Source of the DNA: Gordonia polyisoprenivorans NBRC 16320 = JCM 10675
Lineage (GTDB): Bacteria > Actinomycetota > Actinomycetes > Mycobacteriales > Mycobacteriaceae
Direction: 5' to 3'
Length of the DNA stretch: 64,000 bases
Assembly (NCBI RefSeq): GCF_000241325.1
Contig: NZ_BAEI01000018.1
Location: 1 to 64,000 of the forward strand
The first letter of the stretch is position 1, and every line of letters begins with the position of its first letter. The position numbers and the translations under genes are program-made. This document shows, piece after piece, positions 28,941-41,598 of this stretch. Under the pieces are notes generated by a model. The model saw only the letters and a list, made by a program, of their open reading frames with translations, did not search any database and was not told the origin of the DNA.

Positions 28941-28944
<4 letters not shown>
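28084..28944 (-). CDS. prmC: Peptide chain release factor glutamine methyltransferase PrmC
   Basis: The 286-residue SAM enzyme has [15 protein letters not shown] and the substrate motif [11 protein letters not shown]. It methylates the Gln of the GGQ motif in RF1 and RF2. It directly follows prfA, which encodes its substrate, and GTG 28944 overlaps the prfA stop (GTGA). Confidence 0.95.
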
Positions 28945-30023
<1,079 letters not shown>

Positions 30024-30047
<24 letters not shown>

Positions 30048-30408: not shown

Positions 30409-30636
30409 CTACTTGGCGGCGTCGGCCTTCTTGCGCTTGCCGTAGCGAGCCTCGAACTTCGCGACGCGACCGCCGGTATCGAGGATCTTCTGCTTGCCCG
30501 TGTAGAACGGGTGGCACTGCGAGCAGACTTCCACGTTGATGCGACCGTTGGCAGCGGTGCTGCGGGTCTCGAACGTGTTGCCGCAGCCGCACACGACGGT
30601 GGTCGCGTGGTAATCGGGATGGATTCCCTGCTTCAT
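30409..30636 (-). CDS. rpmE: Ribosomal protein bL31, zinc-binding form
   Basis: The 75-residue protein has the zinc cysteines (VVCGCGN and [11 protein letters not shown]) that mark the C+ form of bL31. GAAAGGGA lies just upstream of ATG 30636. A rho-proximal rpmE followed by prfA is the mycobacterial order; here the gltB-like operon is inserted between rho and rpmE. Confidence 0.96.
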
Positions 30637-30837
30637 CTCTGGTGTCCCTTTCTCGTGGTCGCCGGGTCACCGACGCGGATCGTCGGTGTGAACCGGAACC
30701 GGACTCGACCGATCAGTATGCCACGCGTACCGCACCGGACCGAAATCGTCGGTGACCGGTGACGACGTGCCCCACCGAAGGGTTCACCGGCCTCAACAGA
30801 CCCACCCACGGGTTCATTCCCGCCATCGGCGACATAT

Positions 30838-30879
30838 TTAGGGCACGCTCATGTTGGTAAGGCTTGGCTAAGTTATAGT
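30838..30879 (+). promoter_or_regulatory. Promoter with overlapping IdeR-like iron boxes upstream of the gltB-like operon
   Basis: TATAGT (30874-30879) is a good -10. It overlaps TAAGGCTTGGCTAAGTTAT (30858-30876), which matches 13 of 19 bases of the IdeR consensus TTAGGTTAGGCTAACCTAA (14 of 19 allowing A/T at position 2). A weaker match starts at TTAGG, 30838-30856, exactly 20 bp upstream. Overlap with the -10 is the layout of iron-repressed promoters. Transcription would start near 30886, where an ATG (30887) also lies. Confidence 0.45.
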
Positions 30880-30988
30880 GCCTCTGATGTTCGCTTCATC
30901 GTCGCAGCGGACATCGCCGACCGGCTCACTCGGACGTCACCGCCGAGGCCGGCACATCGAGTGGATACGCGGGCACACGAGGAGACGA

Positions 30989-33900
30989 ATGCAGGCCGAT
31001 CGGCACGGTCACCAGCAGCTGCTGGTCGACCCCAGCGACGAGAAGAGCAGTTGTGGGGTGGGCTTCATCACCCGTAAAGACGGCGTCCAGAAGCACAGCG
31101 TGATCGACAAGGCGCGTGCCGCACTGTGTTCGGTACCCCACCGCGGCGGCATGTCCGCGTTGGGCGTCGGCGACGGCGGCGGCATCTGCATCGACCTGTC
31201 CCAACGGTTCTTCCGCAAACTCACCGGCCGCCCCGACCTGCGCCTTGGCCAGTTCTGCGTCGGCAACTTCTTCTTGCCGACCACCGAGGAGTCGGCCGCC
31301 AAGGCCACCCGGTTGATCGAGCGCACGATGGCCGACCGCGGATTCACCGTGTTGTGTGTGCGCGACGTGCCGGTCGACGACGACGTTCTCCGCGAGGCCG
31401 CCGTCGACTTCCAGCTCCCGATCCGCCAGTGGATCTTCGCAGCACCGCAACCGTGCCCCGAGCCGGTGGCCCTCGACCGTCTCGTCGAGCAGGCGCTTCT
31501 GCACATCGAGGCGATCGGCTACACGGCGCCCGCGCTTGCCGGGCTCTATCCGCTCTCACTGTCGGCACGCACACAGGTCCTCAAAGGACGACTGTCCTCC
31601 CCGGAGGTCATCGACTACTTCCTCGACCTCGCCGATCCCGATCATCGCGTGCACACCCTGTTCTTCCACACGCGCTTCTCCACCAACACCGACCCGCATC
31701 CCACGATGGCGCAGCCGTTCCGGTTCCTCGCGCACAACGGCGAACTCAACACCGACAAAAAGAACCGCATCGCCCAGGTCTCCGCTGCCGCGGCAGCCCG
31801 ACGGCCCATCGTGCGTCCACCCGGCCAGTCCGACTCCAGCCGCCTCGACCAGACCGTGGCCGCTCGGGTGATCAACGACCAGACCGACCTGGTCACGACG
31901 ATCGTGTCGATGATGCCGCCGGCATGGGAGAACGATCCGACGCTGTCGGACCGCGTCCGGGCGATGTTCGAGTACTTCTCGCTCTACGAGGAGAAGAACG
32001 ACGGACCCGCCGCGGTCGTCTTCGGTGACGGTACGATCATCGGCGCGCGACTGGACCGTCTCGGCTTGCGGCCGCTGCGCACCGTCGAGACCACCGAATA
32101 CCTGTGCGCCTTTTCCGAAGCCGGGCAGGTCGACTTCGATCCCGACACCGTGATCGCCCGCGGCCGCGTCTCCGCGGGCGGGATGATCTACTACGACCAT
32201 CGCGAGCATCGCGTCTACACCACCGCCGACGCCTACGAAAAGCTCTCCACCGCACGGGATTACCCCGCCTTGCTGCGCGCGGCGAAGGTCGATCTCGCCG
32301 ATATCGCCGCAGCGCACACCTCGGCCGAGTCCTCGTCGAACGGCATCCCGGCCACGGCCGCCGAGCACGATCTCACCGATCATCAGCGCTACCGCGCCTA
32401 CAATCTGGATCAGGAGAGCTTCCGGTACTTCATCGACCCGATGCTCGCCGACGGCGTCGAGCGGGTCTCCGCGATGGGCTTCGGCAACGCCATCAATCCG
32501 CTGACCAACGTCGAACCCAATGTGTCACGGTTCTTTTCGCAGCGTTTTGCGCAGGTGACCAATCCGCCACTGGACTCCATCCGGGAGGCCGACGGGATGA
32601 GCCTGCGGGTCGCACTCGGCCGGCGCCCGGACATCAACGCCGAGCCGGACCCGTCCGAAGGACGCCAGATCGTACTCGGCACACCGATTCTCACCGCCGG
32701 CGAACTCGGACTGCTGATGGCACAGTCGGAATCACCGGTGCAGCTCTTCGACGCGACATTCGAGCGGGGAGTCGACGCCGACGCCGATCGCATCCACCTC
32801 GTCGAATCGATCGACCGTCTCGGCGCTCGAATCGTCGAGTTCGCTTCGGCCACCGGCGGTATCGCCGTCCTCAGCGACCGCGGGATCGGTCCCGAACGGG
32901 CGGCGCTGCCGATGATCTTCACGGTGTCGGCGGTCAATCAGCAACTCATCTCCGCCGGGGTGTGCCTGCGGATCTCGGTCGTCGTCGACACCGGCCAGGT
33001 CGAATCGTCGCATCATCTCGCGGCGATCCTCGGGTTCGGTGCCGCCGCGGTGCATCCACACACGGTGGCCCGGCGGGCACCCGACGAGGAGGGGTTCGCC
33101 CGGTGGCGCAAGGGCGCCGAGAAATCGCTGTGCAAGACCATGGGCCGGGTCGGGCTCTGCACGGTCGAAAGCTACATCGGCGGTGAGTTCTTCGAACCGG
33201 CCTTCCTCGACACCGCCGAGCAGGATCTGCACCGCTGGTTCCCGAATCTACGGGCACCGGTCGGCGGCGTGGGCCTGCAACCGATCGTCGAGGCCCTCGG
33301 AGCCGCACACAGCGCGGCGATGAACGCCCCGGTACCGGCTGCCGACGCCGACCTACCCCTGCTCGGCCTGTTCAAGGAACGTGCCGAGGGCGCGGGACAC
33401 TCGTTCGGCGCCGCGGCCGTCCGCGGATACGGCGCCCTCGTCGACGAGAAGATCCATTTCTCCTCGGCGCGAGGCGAATCGACGAAAGCAGAGGCCGAGG
33501 GGCTCGGTGACACGGTCCGCCTGCTCACCCTGGCCACCCTCGCCGACGCGTTCGGTCTGGGTGACGAGGTCTACGAGGACAGCAGCTTTGCGGCATTGAG
33601 TCCCGCCGAGATCGATCGGTTCACCGTCACCGACGCCTATCGCGGTTTCGTCGCTGATCTGGCGGCCACGCGGGCCCGCCGCCCGAGCGCGTTGCGCGAC
33701 ATCCTGGAGCCGGTGGCCGACACCCCACCGATCGCGCTCACCGACGTGCAACCCGCACATGAGATCACGGCGACCTTCGCCTCCGGCGCAATGAGTCACG
33801 GCGCACTCGTCGCACCCGCCCATGAGGCGGTCGCCCACGGCACCAACATGGTCGGTGGCCTGTCCAATTGCGGCGAGGGGGGCGAACATCTCTCGCGCTA

Positions 33901-36271
33901 TGGGACGTTGCGCGCCTCGCGGATCAAGCAATTCGCCTCCGGACGATTCGGGATCTGGGCCGGATACCTCGCCGACCCGATGCTCACCGAGCTCGAGATC
34001 AAGATCGGCCAGGGAGCCAAACCCGGTGAGGGCGGCCAACTCCCGGCACCCAAGGTGACCGTCGAGATCGCCGCCGCCCGTGGCGGTACGCCCGGGGTCG
34101 AACTCGTCAGCCCACCGCCGCACCACGACACCTACTCCATCGAGGATCTCGCCCAGCTCATCCACGACTGCAAGGCCGCGCGTGTTCGGGTGATCGTCAA
34201 ACTCGTCAGTTCCGAGGGCATCGGCACCATCGCGGTCGGTGTCGCCAAGGCCGGCGCCGACGTCATCAACGTGGCGGGCAACACCGGCGGAACAGGCGCG
34301 GCGTCGGTGACGAGCCTGCGGTATGCGGGCCGAGCCGCCGAGATCGGGCTCGCCGAGGTCCATCAGGCGTTGTCGGTGCACGGGCTGCGCCAGAAGGTGG
34401 TGCTGCGGACCTCCGGCGCCCACCAGACCGGACGCGACGTGCTCGTCTCTGCTCTCCTCGGTGCCGACAGCTTCGAATTCGGCACCGCCGCACTGATGAT
34501 GATCGGTTGCGTGATGGCCAAGAACTGCAACATCAAGTGCCCGGCCGGACTCACCACCAATCCGGAGGTGTTCGACGGCGATCCACGGGCGATGGCGCAG
34601 TATCTGCTCAATGTCGCCCACGAGGTCCGCGAACTCCTCGCCGATCTCGGGTTGCCGGATCTGCGCGCCGCCCGGGGACGCACCGATCTGCTCCGGCTGA
34701 TCGATCATCCCGCACTGGTCTCCGGTCTGCGCCCGCAAGCCCTGCTCGCGCGGATCGAGGCACCCGAGATCACCGATCCGGTGTATCTCGAACGGGATTA
34801 CCGCGTCGATGACGCGCTCGGCGAACAGGTCTGGCGCGCGCTTGTCGATGAGTCCCGCGACAGGGTCCACACCACACCGGTGGTGCTGACCAACCGCAAC
34901 CGAAGTGTCGGTGCACAACTCGCCGTCGACATCGAGCGGCGGCTCAATCACGGGACCGTCCCCGAGGTGGCCGCCGCGATCCGCGACGATCGCGGCCGAT
35001 GCCACCTCGACGCCGATACCGTGGTCGTCGCCACCTCCGGTTCGGCCGGATTGTCCTATGCCGCATTCTGCAACGACGGGATGCGGCTGGAACACCACGG
35101 AACCTGTAACGACGGAGTGGGCAAGTCCATGTGCGGCGGCACCGTCGTGGTGCGGTCCCCCGGAGGCGGCTCCCCCGCGCTCGGTGGCAACGTCCTCATC
35201 GGGAACTTCGCCCTGTTCGGGGCCACCGGCGGGCGCCTGTTCGTCGAGGGTGAGGCCGGAGATCGCTTCGCGGTCCGCAACTCCGGTGCCACCGCCGTCG
35301 TGGAGGGGCTCGGCGAATTCGGTTGTGAGTACATGACAGGCGGTGCCGTGTTCAACCTCGGCGGCTACGGCAACGGCCTGGGAAACGGGATGAGCGGCGG
35401 CTTTCTCTATCAATACGATCCCGGATGCGAACTTGCCGAACGGATCAGCAACGACTCGGTGCTCGTCGGTGCGATCACCGGCGTCGGCGATCCACTCGCC
35501 CCGATCCATCACCATGCCGCGTTCACCCTGCTGCAGATGCACGCCGAGGCCACCGGCTCGGCGTTGGCCACACGGCTGCTCGAGAATTGGGAGACCGAAA
35601 GGCATTACGTCAGCTATGCGTTACCCCGGGCGTTGCTTGCCCACCAGGACGCCGACACCCTCATGGCGACGCTGAGCCCGCGAGCGCTACGCGATGAACT
35701 CGTCGGGGCGATGGCACTCGGCCAGATCCGAACCCTCAAGACCGATCTGCGCTCCGGGACACCCGTCGTCGAGGGTGTGGTGCCCGAGTACGGCCACACC
35801 GACGATGCCGACATGTACCGCTTGCTGGGTGCTTTCACGGTTTTCGGACTCGCCCGCGAGGTCGCCGGCGCGCGACTGAACCACCGGGGCGCCAGGGCGG
35901 CAACGGGTTCGCCGAGTGAGGAGTTCCTCGCGCGTTCGGCACGCAATCTGATCCTGACCGAGGATCACGATCTCATCGCCCGGGTATCCCGTTACGTGCG
36001 AGACATTCTGGCGCAGTACGACTCCGAGCAGATCGCCGCGCTCATCTCCGCCAAACGCGTCGACGACTACAAGGCGGCACTCGAACGCCGCAACGTGCGC
36101 TCGATGGATGCCCCCGGCACCTACGGCTGGATTCTCCACCAGGACCGCCGCAATCGAGAACGACTCGGTCGGCTACCGAGTTTCGACGAACTGTTCGCCA
36201 TGCGGGCGATCCCCGACGTCGCCGAGTCCCTCGCGCGTTCGGCCGCCGCAGTCCTACCGGAGGTCTCCTGA
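30989..36271 (+). CDS. Very large GltB-like glutamate synthase
   Basis: The 1760-residue protein has the full GltB order: N-terminal nucleophile amidotransferase (Cys22 in SSCGVGF, so a 21-residue propeptide; [18 protein letters not shown]), a central domain, the FMN synthase domain ([37 protein letters not shown]), and the C-terminal GXGXG helix ([14 protein letters not shown] to [14 protein letters not shown]). Some 270 further residues follow, which ordinary GltB lacks. The 3Fe-4S cysteines are C1174-x5-C1180-x3-C1184, one residue shorter than the usual spacing. No gltD is adjacent; a diflavin reductase follows by 1 bp. Start: ATG 30989 with GAGGAG upstream; leaderless ATG 30887 is an alternative. 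It probably makes glutamate from glutamine and 2-oxoglutarate, but the odd context leaves room for another reaction. Confidence 0.8.
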
Positions 36272-36272
36272 G

Positions 36273-38123
36273 ATGCAATTGCCCTACATTCCCTCCGACG
36301 TCCCGTTCACCGGCGATCAGAAGGCTTGGCTGGCGGGATTTCTCGCGGGATTGAACACCAAGATCGCGATGGCCGGATCGGCCACCGCGCAGCCCATCGG
36401 CGCGGTCCAGGCGGCCGCGCCGACCGGGATCGCCCTGCAGGTCGTGTTCGGCTCCCAGACCGGGACCGCCGAATACCTCGCCGAGCAACTCGTCGAACAG
36501 GCCGGCGCGCAGGGATTCGTCCCCCAGTTCTGCGGTCTCGACGCCCTCGAACTCGGCGACCTGACTGCGGTGCGACGACTGGTGGTGATCACCTCCACCT
36601 ACGGCGAGGGCGACATGCCCGACAACGGTGAACTGTTCTGGCAAGCACTCGCCGCACCCGACGCACCCCGCCTGGACGGGTTGTTCTACGGCGTTCTGGC
36701 GCTGGGTGATTCGATCTACGACGGGTTCTGTCAGGCCGGGAAGAACATCGACGCCCGACTGGCCGAACTCGGCGCCACCCGGGTGATCGACCGGGTCGAC
36801 TGCGACGTCGACTACGAGGAACCCGCCCGCGAGTGGATCTCGGGCGCGATCACCGCGCTGGCCACCGTCGACACCGACACCTCCGATTCCACCGCCCCCG
36901 ACTCCTCGGCATATGACTCCTCGGCACCGGCCACCCAGCCTTCGGTCCCCGCTGCGGCCGAAACCGTTGCCCCCGTCCCGGCAACCAGGCCCCGTACGCC
37001 GGCGAAGTGGGGGCGCAAGAATCCGTATCCGGCGACCATCGTCGCCAACACGGTGTTGTCCGGCCCGGGATCGGACAAGGAAGTTCGTCATCTGGTGATC
37101 TCGTTGGGCGACAGCGGAATCACCTACGAGCCGGGCGACGGTATCAGCATCGCCCCGGTCAACGACGCTGCTCTGGTGGAACGCGTGATCAGCCGTCTCG
37201 GAGCGACCGGCGACGAGCCGATCACCGATCGCAAGTCCACCCGCACGTTGCGTGATGCCCTGACACGTCAGTACGAGATCGCGACGCCGTCGAAGTATCT
37301 CGTCGACTACATCGCCTCGCGCAGTCAGGATCCGGAGTTGCTGCACCTGGTGTCCACCGGCGACAAGGAGGCACTCGACGCGTGGCTGTGGGGCAAGGAC
37401 GTGCTCGACCTCCTCGAAGTCGACCCGTCCCTGACGATCACCCCCGAGGAGTTGCTCGCCGAACTGCGTCCGTTGGCGCACCGGGTGTACTCCATCTCGT
37501 CGAGTCCCCGTGCACACCAGGGCACCGTGCACATCACCATGGCCACCGTCCGCTACCGCTCCGGCGAACGCGAACGTGGTGGGGTGTGTTCGACGTTCCT
37601 CGCCGATCGCCGCCACGACGGCGACACCGTCGACGTCTTCATCACCCCCAACAAGTCGTTCCGGCTGCCGGCCGACGACGCCGCGACGATCATGATCGGG
37701 CCGGGTACCGGAATCGCACCGTTCCGTGCGTTCCTGCACGAGCGGCAGGCCCGCGGCTGTTCGGGACGGAACTGGCTGTTCTTCGGCGACCGGCATCACG
37801 CCACCGACTATCTCTACGCCGATGAGATCGACCAATTCCGCGCCGACGGTGTGCTCACCCGTGTGGATCTCGCGTTCTCCCGTGATCAGGATCGCAAGGT
37901 CTATGTACAGGACCGGATGCGTGAGCAGGGGGCGGAACTCTTCGCGTGGCTGGAATCCGGTGCGCACCTGTATGTGTGCGGCGACGCCACCCGGATGGCG
38001 CGCGACGTGGAGACCACACTCACCGAGATCATCGCCGAGCACGGTTCCCGCTCTGCCGATCAGGCCGGTGACTACCTCGATCAACTGAAGAAGGACAAGC
38101 GCTACCTGCGCGACGTCTACTAG
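36273..38123 (+). CDS. CysJ-like NADPH diflavin reductase
   Basis: The 616-residue protein joins a flavodoxin domain ([42 protein letters not shown]; about residues 55-200), a Ser/Thr/Pro-rich linker, and an FAD/NADPH reductase of the CysJ/P450-reductase type ([46 protein letters not shown], ending in Tyr). It passes electrons from NADPH through FAD and FMN to a one-electron acceptor. No sulfite reductase hemoprotein is near. Its ATG is 1 bp after the gltB-like stop, so the GltB-like protein or the HmuS-like product downstream are the likely partners. Confidence 0.88.
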
Positions 38124-38138
38124 GAAAGGAAGGGCGTC

Positions 38139-39176
38139 ATGCCCACCAACCCCGAGTCCACTCCCGGCCATGAAGACGCCCCCGACGGCTCCGGCACGTC
38201 CCTGTCGCGGGGCTGTCGGCGCGACCAGGGATGTGGTTGTGCGCCAGGGAGTTCGGGTACCAGCGATCTCGCGACGCTGATGGCCTCCCCGGGTTTCACC
38301 GGCACTGTACTCGGCGTCGAGCCCGCCGTCGTCGGAGCGCATCTTCCACATCTCGACCAGGTGGTCGGCGTCACCGTGGCGGGGCCGGTGGTGTGCAATG
38401 ACGTCGGCGCCCACGAGCCGCCGGTGCATCCGGGTGGACCGATCCGGTGCGATGCCTCGCGTATCACGTTGCGGCTCAACCCCGCTCGTCTGGGGTCGGC
38501 GCTGATCACCGAACCCGCCGCGCATGTCCCGCCGACCCTGCGGTTCTTCGACGTCGACGGGAACACCGCTCATGCCACGTATCTCACCGAGCTCAGTGAC
38601 CGGCTGGCCTTCGAGTCGATCGGACTCGGGCGCGCCGATCCGAGCTTCGCCGACGCCGCCGGCCTCGACTCATACGGTCCCGACGCCCCTGCGAGCTGGT
38701 CGACGCCGACACCTGTCCGCGCCGACGACGACCAGATCACCCAATTCGATTCCATCCTTGCCGACGGCGGTGTCGCGCGACGCACCGAACTCCCGGGTCT
38801 TTCCGATGCCGGTTTCCGCAGGGTCGACGACCGGCAGGTGATCGCCGCGCTCGAACACGCTGCACTCCTGGGCATGGCGATGACGACGGCCACCTGTGCA
38901 CCCGGGTGTATCCAGATGCGCCACGACCAGCTCGACGGCGCCCGCGAGCACCGCGGCCAGATGGTCGTGGCCTCCGGGCGCGCGCGGGCGATGATCAATT
39001 TCGGTCTGGTCGCCGAGTCCTGGATCACCTGGTCGGACGGAGTGTGGGGACGCACCGGCTCGATCGAGCTGTACGACCGGCACGGCGCCTGCAGCCTCGT
39101 GCTCACCCAGACCGGCCCGGTTCCCGCACCGGTCTTCGCTGCCTGGGATCATCTACTGACCGACCTGGTCGCCTGA
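38139..39176 (+). CDS. HmuS/HemS-like heme-utilisation protein
   Basis: The 345-residue protein matches the two-repeat HemS/HmuS fold by pattern: LRFFDVDGNTAHATYLTELSD in the first half and GCIQMRHDQL, ESWITWSD and SIELYDRHGACSLVL in the second. The family binds heme and traffics it or breaks it down with a flavoprotein electron donor. The N-terminus has an extra Cys-rich stretch (GCRRDQGCGCAPG) that could bind metal or a cluster. It has a strong Shine-Dalgarno (GGAAGGG) 15 bp after the diflavin reductase gene. The combination with the reductase and an iron box supports a heme-iron role, but no hmuTUV-type importer lies in the window. Confidence 0.68.
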   Translation: MPTNPESTPGHEDAPDGSGTSLSRGCRRDQGCGCAPGSSGTSDLATLMASPGFTGTVLGVEPAVVGAHLPHLDQVVGVTVAGPVVCNDVGAHEPPVHPGGPIRCDASRITLRLNPARLGSALITEPAAHVPPTLRFFDVDGNTAHATYLTELSDRLAFESIGLGRADPSFADAAGLDSYGPDAPASWSTPTPVRADDDQITQFDSILADGGVARRTELPGLSDAGFRRVDDRQVIAALEHAALLGMAMTTATCAPGCIQMRHDQLDGAREHRGQMVVASGRARAMINFGLVAESWITWSDGVWGRTGSIELYDRHGACSLVLTQTGPVPAPVFAAWDHLLTDLVA

Positions 39177-39303: not shown

Positions 39304-41292
39304 TCAGTCGTCCTTCATCGCGCCTGGCGCATTGGTCTGCACCTGCATCAGGAACTCGACGTTGGTCTTGGTCTTCTTGAGCTGGCTGATCAACAGGTCG
39401 ATCGCCTGCTGCGAATCGAGGCCGCTCAGCACACGACGGAGTTTGTAGACGATCCCGAATTCCTCGGGCGACATCAACAGCTCGTCCTTACGTGTGCTCG
39501 ACTGATTGACGTCGACGGCCGGGAACACCCGGCGGTCGGCGATCTTGCGGTCGAGTTTGAGTTCGGCGTTACCGGTGCCCTTGAATTCCTCGAAGATCAC
39601 CGTGTCGCCGGTGGAGCCCGTCTCGACCAGCGCGGAGGCGATGATCGTCAGCGACCCGCCGTTCTCGATATTGCGCGCGGCGCCGAGGAAACGCTTCGGC
39701 GGATACAGCGCGGTCGAGTCGACACCACCGGAGAGGATGCGACCCGACGCCGGCGAGGCGTTGTTGTAGGCGCGACCGAGACGGGTGATGGAGTCGAGCA
39801 ACACCACGACATCCTTGCCACCCTCGACCAGACGCTTGGCGCGCTCGATGGCCAGCTCGGCGACGGAGGTGTGATCTGACGGCGGACGGTCGAACGTCGA
39901 GGCGATGACCTCACCCTTGACCGAGCGCTGCATATCGGTCACCTCTTCGGGGCGCTCGTCGACGAGCACCACCATGAGATGGCATTCCGGGTTGTTGGTG
40001 GTGATTGCGTTCGCGATGTCCTGGATGATCGTGGTCTTACCGGCCTTCGGCGGCGACACGATCAATGCTCGCTGCCCCTTGCCGATCGGCATGATCAGAT
40101 CGATCACGCGGGTCGACAGGCGATCAGGGGTCGTCTCCAGGCGCAGGCGCTGATTCGGATAGAGCGGTGTCAGCTTGCCGAACTCCGGGCGCTTTCTGGC
40201 GGCCTCGACCTCGGCACCGTTGACGGTGTCGAGTCGCACCAGCGGATTGAACTTCTGCCGCTGATTGGGCTGCTCACCCTCGCGGGGCACCTTCACCGCA
40301 CCGGTGATGGCGTCACCGCGGCGTAAGCCGTTCTTGCGCACGAGATTCATCGAGACGTATACGTCGTTGGGGCCGGCGAGGTACCCCGAGGTGCGGACGA
40401 ACGCGTAGTTGTCGAGCACATCGAGAATGCCCGCGACGGGAGCGATGACGTCGTCCTCGGAGATCTGCGGCTCGCCCGAGGTGTTCTCGCGGTCGCGCCC
40501 ACGACGCCGCTCGCGGAACCGACGTCCGCGGCGTCGGCCGCCCTGGTCGTCGTCGTCGTCGCGGTTGTTGTCGCGGTTGCCGTTCTGGCCCTGCCCGCCC
40601 TGGTTGTTACCGCCCTGGTTGTTACCGCCCTGGTTGTTACCGCCGTTCCGGTTGCCCTCGCGATTCTGGCCCGACTCGCGGTTCTGGCCACCCTCACGGT
40701 TCTGGTTGTTGCGGTTGCGATTGCGGTTGCGCTGGTTGCCCGACGCGTCGTCGCCCTCGGCGTCGGCGCGATTGTCGCGCCGCTCGGTGCGGGCCTCGCC
40801 GCCACCGCTCGTCGACTCGCCGGAAGTGTCGGTGGACTCGCGCTCGGAGCGCTTCTTCGGTGCCGCGTCGGTCTTCTCGGCGCCGGCTGCGGCGTCGGAG
40901 TCCGCGGCAGACGTCCGGGAGGTGCCGTTCTCGCGTGCGCTGGTCTCGCCTGCGCCGGTCTCGGCGGCGCCGTTCTTGCTCGCGCGTCCACGCGCCGGAC
41001 GGCCGGTGGGCTCGTCGGCGGTGATCGTCATCTGTTCGGGGGAACCGGCCTTGGCCTGCTCGCCGGTTTTCGGCGATCCGCCGGACTGGCGCTCCTTGAT
41101 CGCAGCGATGAGGTCACCCTTGCGCATGCCTGAGGTGCCCTTGATGCCCAGTTCCCCGGCGAGCGCACGGAGTTCGCTCAGCACCATGCCGGACAGTCCG
41201 GTTCGGGCGCTGCGGGCGCGGGTCTTCGGCGCCGCCGCTTCGGTGGTCGTGTCTGCGGAAGCGGGTGCGGTGATCAGGTCCGTATCGGTCAC
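39304..41292 (-). CDS. rho: Transcription termination factor Rho, actinobacterial long form
   Basis: The 662-residue hexameric RNA helicase has an N-terminal SAP-like helix region (LSELRALAGELGIKG), a disordered insert of about 200 residues rich in Arg, Asn, Gly and Asp (NNQGG units, RRRGRRFRERRRGRDRE), the RNA-binding domain (VAGILDVLDNYAFVRTSGYL) and the ATPase core (SPPKAGKTTI, ELAIERAKRLVEGG, LLDSITRLGRAYN). The insert is typical of high-GC Gram-positives and adds RNA binding. GTG 41292 is chosen: AAAGGA lies 6 bases upstream, whereas the longer frame has none. Confidence 0.95.
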   Translation of the reverse strand: MTDTDLITAPASADTTTEAAAPKTRARSARTGLSGMVLSELRALAGELGIKGTSGMRKGDLIAAIKERQSGGSPKTGEQAKAGSPEQMTITADEPTGRPARGRASKNGAAETGAGETSARENGTSRTSAADSDAAAGAEKTDAAPKKRSERESTDTSGESTSGGGEARTERRDNRADAEGDDASGNQRNRNRNRNNQNREGGQNRESGQNREGNRNGGNNQGGNNQGGNNQGGQGQNGNRDNNRDDDDDQGGRRRGRRFRERRRGRDRENTSGEPQISEDDVIAPVAGILDVLDNYAFVRTSGYLAGPNDVYVSMNLVRKNGLRRGDAITGAVKVPREGEQPNQRQKFNPLVRLDTVNGAEVEAARKRPEFGKLTPLYPNQRLRLETTPDRLSTRVIDLIMPIGKGQRALIVSPPKAGKTTIIQDIANAITTNNPECHLMVVLVDERPEEVTDMQRSVKGEVIASTFDRPPSDHTSVAELAIERAKRLVEGGKDVVVLLDSITRLGRAYNNASPASGRILSGGVDSTALYPPKRFLGAARNIENGGSLTIIASALVETGSTGDTVIFEEFKGTGNAELKLDRKIADRRVFPAVDVNQSSTRKDELLMSPEEFGIVYKLRRVLSGLDSQQAIDLLISQLKKTKTNVEFLMQVQTNAPGAMKDD
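40596..40640. repeat. 15-bp tandem repeat inside rho
   Basis: CGCCCTGGTTGTTAC is repeated three times exactly (40596-40610, 40611-40625, 40626-40640), encoding NNQGG units of the disordered insert. Copy number is likely to vary between strains. Confidence 0.9.
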
Positions 41293-41598
41293 GGATGTCC
41301 TTTCATTCCCTTGCAAACCGTGTGCCGCAAGGGGCTTCATTCCGCCGTCGCCCTCGGTTGTCAGATGCCGAGGTTCGTCGGGCATGCCCGCCCTCGGTGG
41401 ACGGGTGAGAGATCGTGGTCTCCGGCTGCGAGTGTCACTCCTGTACTCGGGTGCGCCAGTTGGGTGCCGGCTCGAGGAGGTGATTGTCGGGTCGGTATCG
41501 GTGAACCGTTCGTTCCGCTGTGGAGGCGGCTCCTCCACGGAGTGGACCACCAAGCTGATTACCCGAGAACATGGCTGAACGAGCCTTCGCGGCTAGAC
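41293..41598 (-). promoter_or_regulatory. Long rho mRNA leader
   Basis: If transcription starts at the promoter described at 41605-41633, rho has a leader of about 305 nt. It contains a GTGGAGG/CCTCCAC hairpin (41520-41538). Rho genes are often autoregulated through long C-rich leaders, so a self-termination role is plausible. Confidence 0.4.

Follow-up and report, generated by a model that had tools for sequence, protein, structure and literature searches.

A three-gene operon encoding a GltB-like protein and a diflavin reductase

We analyzed a 64,000-nucleotide stretch of the Gordonia polyisoprenivorans NBRC 16320 genome (contig NZ_BAEI01000018.1, positions 1 to 64,000; here termed the window), in which three plus-strand genes encode a GltB-like glutamate synthase large subunit, a CysJ-like NADPH diflavin reductase, and a HemS/HmuS-like protein. 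The GltB-like open reading frame spans 30878-36271 (+), and its probable start is the ATG at 30989, preceded by AGGAG, yielding a protein of 1760 amino acids (aa) encoded by 30989-36271; a database protein 98% identical to it likewise has 1760 aa. The frame of the diflavin reductase covers 36108-38123, and its conserved start, the ATG at 36273, defines a gene for 616 aa (36273-38123, +) that begins 1 bp after the GltB-like gene. The HemS-like gene (38139-39176, +) lies 15 bp past the reductase gene. An earlier note on this DNA had described these genes as one operon inserted between rpmE and rho; the gaps of 1 and 15 bp and the insertion site are all seen in the sequence, a single operon with an iron-box promoter is supported, and the identities proposed for the three products are backed by Pfam domains and profile matches. 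Rather than a three-part pathway, the analysis below points to a type of glutamate synthase that is made up of two genes and linked to a diflavin reductase, and for which an iron switch is predicted in Actinobacteria.

The GltB-like and diflavin reductase genes form a conserved pair

Family loci were taken from the best 80 of at least 579 matches, the family being larger than counted here, and from 5 of the 9 plasmid records with a full-length match. The resulting 84 loci (79 from the genome collection and 5 from plasmids) comprised 33 actinobacterial and 51 proteobacterial ones. The reductase gene adjoins the GltB-like gene in 82/84 of them (77/79 in the genome collection and 5/5 on plasmids); the two loci without it, L037 and L044, stop at a contig end, and the reductase is present in all loci reaching that far. 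Distances among the GltB-like proteins and among their reductase partners were strongly correlated (r = 0.93, 82 pairs; highest value among 1000 permutations, 0.17; L038, where the gene lies in two frames, was excluded from this comparison and from the reductase tree). Constant adjacency and correlated distances indicate that the two genes travel and evolve together, across phyla as well, and they appear to form a distinct glutamate synthase type in Actinobacteria and Proteobacteria. Co-occurrence of all three families, which the earlier note had suggested checking, was upheld for this pair and failed for the third gene: the HemS-like gene adjoins the pair in 24/33 actinobacterial loci, and tblastn (E of 1e-4) found none next to it in the 51 proteobacterial loci. 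A constant three-gene pathway was rejected on these counts.

In the tree, the actinobacterial sequences split into two groups, of which one was the sister of a large proteobacterial group (support of 0.98); the placement of the Gordonia group had a support of 0.01. The flavin-type pair is accessory in Gordonia: it was found in 22/59 genomes, including that of G. polyisoprenivorans, and 42 other genomes of the sample had no listed match of the flavin type (at most four candidates scored per genome). An order-level sample contained the pair type in 4/200 genomes (two candidates scored per genome). Because so few candidates were scored per genome, the absences in these samples, and in the Pantoea-family sample described below, are soft.

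The GltB-like protein contains the GATase_2, Glu_syn_central, Glu_synthase, and GXGXG domains, all four above the Pfam cutoff. The N-terminal nucleophile cysteine (predicted in the motif SCGVGF, at 31052-31054, +), HNGE, SDS, and the main flavin mononucleotide (FMN)/2-oxoglutarate motifs occur in 95% or more of 74 family rows; conservation of the amidotransferase motifs was assessed inside the family only, the canonical rows of the alignment lacking the N-terminal half. The best structural and sequence match is the bacterial NADPH-dependent GltBD type (for example, in Azospirillum and E. coli), with which the protein shares the four Pfam domains, the amidotransferase cysteine, and the main FMN/2-oxoglutarate motifs. 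It differs in having a diflavin reductase as partner instead of GltD, in its cluster-type cysteine motif (34508-34540, +), which is CX5CX3C in all 99 family rows covering it and CX5CX4C in 8/8 canonical rows, in a conserved C-terminal extension, and in forming a separate clade. (Rows L003, L018, and L031 have no residues at the cysteine motif owing to the frame or contig used, and L031 shows the motif in another alignment.) The extension (35675-36268, +) is predicted to be helical and lies past the part that matches canonical GltB. Identity amounts to 33% overall with a rhizobial GltB and to about 45% in the synthase half. The family was monophyletic (76/76) and carried 67 type-defining substitutions relative to 15 canonical GltB rows, a set that excludes the E. 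coli region. The protein scored 990.7 bits against the NCBI equivalog PRK11750 (cutoff of 1047 bits); some relatives reach 1050 to 1065 bits with pieces summed, and others stay below. A predicted model of residues 936 to 1797 had a mean predicted local distance difference test score of 68.8, with low values in the catalytic loops. Fold comparison placed the ferredoxin-dependent glutamate synthases 1llw/1ofd among the best matches and barely covered the C-terminal extension. Ferredoxin-dependent glutamate synthases, found in cyanobacteria and plants, have a homologous large subunit and work without GltD; compared with them, the GltB-like gene has an adjoining gene for an NADPH diflavin partner, and their sequences are more distant from it than is Azospirillum GltB.

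The diflavin reductase consists of Flavodoxin_1, FAD_binding_1, and NAD_binding_1 domains. It thus has the order of flavodoxin, flavin adenine dinucleotide (FAD), and NADP domains of CysJ, the flavoprotein of NADPH sulfite reductase, and cysJ is its closest family model, with 599.6 bits. This score falls under the cutoff of 668.15, and the reductase further differs from CysJ in its tie to the GltB-like gene and in that no CysI above the cutoff was found in the G. polyisoprenivorans genome. In all three Pantoea/Erwinia-type genomes checked, a separate CysJ above the cutoff is present. One clade (support of 0.97) holds the linked reductases and excludes 13 other CysJ-type sequences, among which are the CysJ proteins from three enterobacteria and forms whose frames exceed 1300 codons. 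We rejected a role in sulfite reduction because of the missing CysI, the separate CysJ, and the clade of its own; if the flavin-fed reading given below holds, the gene that annotated relatives list as "sulfite reductase subunit alpha" is the likely reductase. Two Gordonia loci, L033 (8569-9807) and L040 (4887-6047), carry a second, partly matching copy of the diflavin reductase upstream of the GltB-like gene, and both copies belong to the linked clade.

Several genomes in which no other glutamate synthase was found

We searched 22 genomes for glutamate synthases and found only the flavin type in 12 and a canonical GltB as well in 10. The 12 flavin-type-only genomes are nine enterobacterial ones, one Methylobacillus, and two metagenome-assembled ones, which may be incomplete. 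A GltD homolog (326 to 366 bits) lies at most 1 kb from canonical GltB in 10/10 of the genomes having it, and no GltD match above 34 bits was found in 11/12 of the flavin-type-only genomes, among them 8/9 of the enterobacterial ones (all candidates, or at least 45, were scored in each genome without GltD). In 19/19 enterobacterial loci (Pantoea, Erwinia, and strains labeled Enterobacter), the pair is flanked by arcB on one side and sspB/sspA/rpsI on the other; in E. coli K-12, the genes of this interval include gltB and gltD. Of 198 genomes sampled within the Pantoea family and scored for two candidates each, five had only the flavin type, one had both types, 71 had no match, and the rest had canonical or broken copies. 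Canonical gltBD is retained in all five actinobacterial genomes checked; G. polyisoprenivorans (genome G000) has canonical gltB with an adjacent gltD twice, on contigs C83 (132240-135711) and C76 (37102-40549).

A functional link is provided by Pantoea ananatis. The search of P. ananatis LMG 2665 turned up no GltB other than a family member, which shares about 68% identity with Agrobacterium family members over 97 to 98% of its length and at most 39% with a canonical rhizobial GltB. According to the excerpted text of a report on strain AJ13355, a glutamate producer, no close homolog of the E. coli glutamate synthase (GOGAT) is present, its gltB is 64% identical to the large subunit of A. tumefaciens, and a knockout of this gene (PAJ_RS19710) is a glutamate auxotroph, the last point being reported with reference to a 2012 genome paper (PMC12364357). 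The P. ananatis gene evidently belongs to the flavin-type family, to judge from the LMG 2665 protein and the published identity; in its excerpted form, that report calls it GOGAT and mentions neither a reductase partner nor a separate class (PMC12364357). Given the auxotrophy of the knockout and the family membership of the only GltB in LMG 2665, the flavin-type family very likely makes glutamate in vivo.

An IdeR-like box precedes most of the actinobacterial operons

The promoter of the operon had been described earlier as overlapping an IdeR-like box, and this was borne out. Scored against the IdeR consensus TTAGGTTAGGCTAACCTAA, the region upstream of the GltB-like gene contains two overlapping 13/19 matches, at 30853-30871 and 30858-30876, which together delimit a putative operator (30853-30876, without assigned strand); the second match runs into the likely -10 element TATAGT (30874-30879, +). 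Only two other sites in the 64 kb of the window reached 13/19, and none scored above 13. A single match of this quality is weak alone, but the box recurs in relatives and is therefore more than chance would suggest. Among the 33 actinobacterial leaders, 31 contain a box of at least 12/19 and 26 a box of at least 13/19 (scores of 12 to 16), and in 30/33 loci no site elsewhere in the locus scores higher than the leader box, which is strictly the best in 21. The proteobacterial leaders served as a negative control, L107 being left out since it has no intact start motif: 9 of the 50 reached at least 12/19 and none at least 13/19, and the leader site was best or tied in seven and strictly best in one. 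Both canonical gltB leaders of the G. polyisoprenivorans genome scored 10/19. This genome encodes DtxR-type repressors.

We infer that IdeR, together with iron, would repress the actinobacterial operon, and expression in G. polyisoprenivorans is predicted to be turned on by iron shortage. The IdeR-like box in 31/33 leaders, taken with the retention of canonical gltBD in the five genomes checked, suggests that the actinobacterial pair is an iron-saving spare. The iron box is a feature of Actinobacteria that the proteobacterial leaders do not share, and in Pantoea and Erwinia the pair appears to belong to housekeeping nitrogen metabolism and not to an iron starvation module as envisaged in the earlier note.

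When the proteobacterial leaders were scanned for Fur or Irr boxes with consensus strings and mononucleotide shuffles only, no consistent match emerged, and such boxes were rejected; L114 and a few other leaders have single good Fur-like sites. Sixteen alphaproteobacterial pair leaders (L054, L060, L062 to L066, L068, L076, L079, L110, and L111, as well as L034, L039, L041, and L044) have in common an operator-like repeat of the type TAGGTCAGCAnnnnTGAC, which adjoins a TTGACT/TATA promoter in 12. As to gene content, iron-related neighbors were sporadic in Proteobacteria. The pair on the Ketogulonicigenium vulgare plasmid pYP1, typed as conjugative (L112, 11974-27835), is followed by genes for a hypothetical protein, an AraC regulator, a TonB siderophore receptor, a siderophore ATP-binding cassette transporter, and a siderophore-interacting protein. 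In Methylobacillus gramineus (L070, 5224-9322), the pair is immediately preceded, on the same strand, by genes for an extracytoplasmic function (ECF) sigma factor, FecR, and a TonB receptor, and Fur-family genes lie downstream of the pair in one Pseudovibrio and one Agrobacterium locus. The two rhizobial plasmid loci with annotation showed no iron-related genes.

The HemS-like gene is an actinobacterial addition

The third protein matched Pfam HemS with 34.2 bits (cutoff of 24) and aligned to HemS in a profile comparison with an E value of 6e-30, being homologous to the HemS/HmuS heme-binding proteins over most of its length. It differs from them in the region of the axial heme ligand (His196 of HemS) and in a Cys-rich N terminus that is common among the HemS-like proteins of the family loci. 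The axial-histidine segment reads as a TDQIxQFD-like motif with no histidine at the aligned place, although the alignment may be shifted there. In 9 of the 24 loci with the gene, its longest frame overlaps the reductase gene by 11 bp. The HemS-like protein is best seen as a putative actinobacterial add-on for heme or iron handling. As for the suggestion that the diflavin protein feeds heme breakdown, we found no evidence for it. A flavodoxin gene takes the third place instead of the HemS-like gene in Rhodococcus opacus (L086, 17327-17776; domain confirmed), as does a flavodoxin-like gene in R. tibetensis (L093).

Probable replacement of GltD by a diflavin reductase

We consider it likely, with a probability of roughly 0.74, that the diflavin reductase replaces GltD in a distinct type of glutamate synthase and that the operon is turned on under iron shortage in G. 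polyisoprenivorans. Electrons from NADPH would pass through the FAD and FMN of the reductase to the GltB-like protein, which would split ammonia from glutamine and join it to 2-oxoglutarate on its FMN center, forming glutamate. GltD carries two 4Fe-4S clusters, and its replacement would save most of the iron of the enzyme; in Actinobacteria, the HemS-like protein may add the handling of heme iron. Between the two electron routes offered in the earlier note, the one from the diflavin protein to the GltB-like enzyme is the best reading, being favored by constant linkage, coevolution, and the loss of GltD. Since an enzyme free of GltD would need less iron, the simplest view is that the pair is a housekeeping enzyme in some lineages and an iron-controlled spare in Actinobacteria.

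Several observations weigh against this reading. The presumed role of the linked reductase as electron donor is deduced from linkage, coevolution, and the absence of GltD, and the assignment of the P. ananatis gene passes through a second strain and a published identity. Three cluster cysteines are still present, and the large subunit may yet carry iron; two positions of the synthase site also differ from the canonical ones (GHDGGTG is read as GNTGGTG and SNSGEGGED as SNxGEGGEH). Among the flavin-type-only genomes, G270 contains an 821-bit match to the GltD-like family TIGR01318 (in a 656-codon frame on another contig), which is presumably AegA-like, and one of the nine enterobacterial genomes, G274, has its GltB-like gene in broken frames (L107, Candidatus Pantoea haifensis); the gene is likewise split into several frames in Gordonia sputi (L038, 10001-15330). 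On the side of iron control, the box of the G. polyisoprenivorans operon itself reaches only 13/19, two Rhodococcus loci (L069 and L090) have no IdeR-like box, and no iron-related genes were seen at the Pantoea locus examined.

The points on regulation feed the alternative that the enzyme is of the diflavin type, as in the first half of our explanation, but that IdeR does not bind the actinobacterial box or iron does not govern the operon. The modest score of the box and the two Rhodococcus leaders speak for it; the recurrence of a 12 to 16/19 box in 31/33 actinobacterial leaders, best or tied in 30, and the contrast with the proteobacterial control make it rather unlikely. A synthase fed by ferredoxin or flavodoxin, with the diflavin reductase serving elsewhere or only recharging the carrier, would fit the existence of ferredoxin-dependent enzymes, which are structural neighbors of the GltB-like protein (1llw/1ofd), and the flavodoxin-like gene right after the pair in the two Rhodococcus loci L086 and L093. 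The reductase, however, has its own FMN domain, occurs in every locus reaching past the first gene, and covaries with the GltB-like protein, and neither a flavodoxin nor a ferredoxin gene is the constant next gene among the loci, so that we regard this arrangement as unlikely.

It is still harder to see the operon as mainly a heme or iron release module, in which the reductase would supply electrons for a HemS-type reaction and the GltB-like protein would have taken on a different role. The IdeR-like box, the HemS-like third gene, the siderophore genes of Ketogulonicigenium, and the ECF sigma factor, FecR, and TonB genes of M. gramineus would all suit such a module, which we nevertheless judge very improbable: the HemS-like gene is missing beside the pair in 9/33 actinobacterial loci and was not found in the 51 proteobacterial ones, the amidotransferase and main 2-oxoglutarate/FMN motifs are kept, and the pair provides the only GltB found in Pantoea, where it is evidently needed for glutamate. 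That the reductase is an ordinary CysJ standing by chance beside a glutamate synthase gene seems scarcely credible; its best family model is cysJ (599.6 bits), but this score lies below the cutoff of 668, CysI above the cutoff is missing, the three Pantoea/Erwinia-type genomes have a separate CysJ, and the linked forms make up their own clade.

On balance, we lean toward a wider version of the GltD-replacement reading, in which a further class of glutamate synthase with its own NADPH diflavin reductase has moved between phyla, has replaced gltBD in Pantoea and Erwinia, and in Actinobacteria has become an IdeR-controlled, iron-saving spare with a leader hairpin as second level of control. Glutamate synthase, which is rich in iron, is a main point at which nitrogen enters metabolism; a flavin-fed version, if real, would show how a cell keeps assimilating nitrogen without paying for the iron of GltD. 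In the excerpted literature, Bacillus subtilis lowers glutamate synthase when iron is short (PMC9938188), and glutamate synthase is a predicted and probed target of the staphylococcal iron-sparing RNA IsrR (PMC9410917). In view of the B. subtilis case, a GltD-free spare would fill a real gap. The same reading would, if true, account for the reported lack of a close E. coli GOGAT homolog in P. ananatis (PMC12364357, as excerpted). Within the open-licence literature, we found no paper that, judged by title and abstract, describes a glutamate synthase dependent on a diflavin protein or controlled by IdeR.

A hairpin in the leader RNA

Between the box and the start of the GltB-like gene, the leader contains a hairpin (about 30887-30914, +) with a covarying stem of 9 bp and a conserved loop of 10 nucleotides (UCAUCGUCGC in G. 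polyisoprenivorans). Across 12 distinct sequences, 88% of the cells are paired, 7/9 pairs are changed on both sides, and the covariation score was reached by 0/500 shuffles. The hairpin was seen in the leaders of G. polyisoprenivorans and of L031 to L033, L038, L040, L042, L045 to L051, L053, L069, and L090. A model built from 13 leaders gave one strong match in the genome (E of 1.5e-5, the next being 0.089) and found L040, L042, L051, and L069, all outside the training set, L051 being identical to a training row. No Rfam family matched the hairpin strand at E values up to 1. Mycobacterial leaders have a related hairpin-like element with the loop CUCAACGnCGAG, which the hairpin model (R1) missed, and the Gordonia jacobaea leader (L042) shows, by eye, three tandem copies.

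Pairing between the loop and the Shine-Dalgarno sequence was compared for own and swapped partners. With an uncertain choice of the Shine-Dalgarno sequence, own partners seemed to pair better in Gordonia and Rhodococcus (7/5000 permutations as low), and mycobacteria and Nocardia showed no preference for their own partner (3366/5000 permutations as low). Our guess is that the leader hairpin might act in translational control.

Genes flanking the operon

The operon is flanked by minus-strand genes, prfA (28941-30047) and rpmE (30409-30636) upstream and rho (39304-41553) downstream. In the 11 named Gordonia loci, prfA is always on the upstream side of the operon, at a distance of several kb in L033 and L040, and rho is downstream in 9/11, the remaining 2 loci ending too early. 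The L31-Actinobacteria ribosomal leader (RF03158, 60 bits) lies on the minus strand at 30657-30702, before rpmE.

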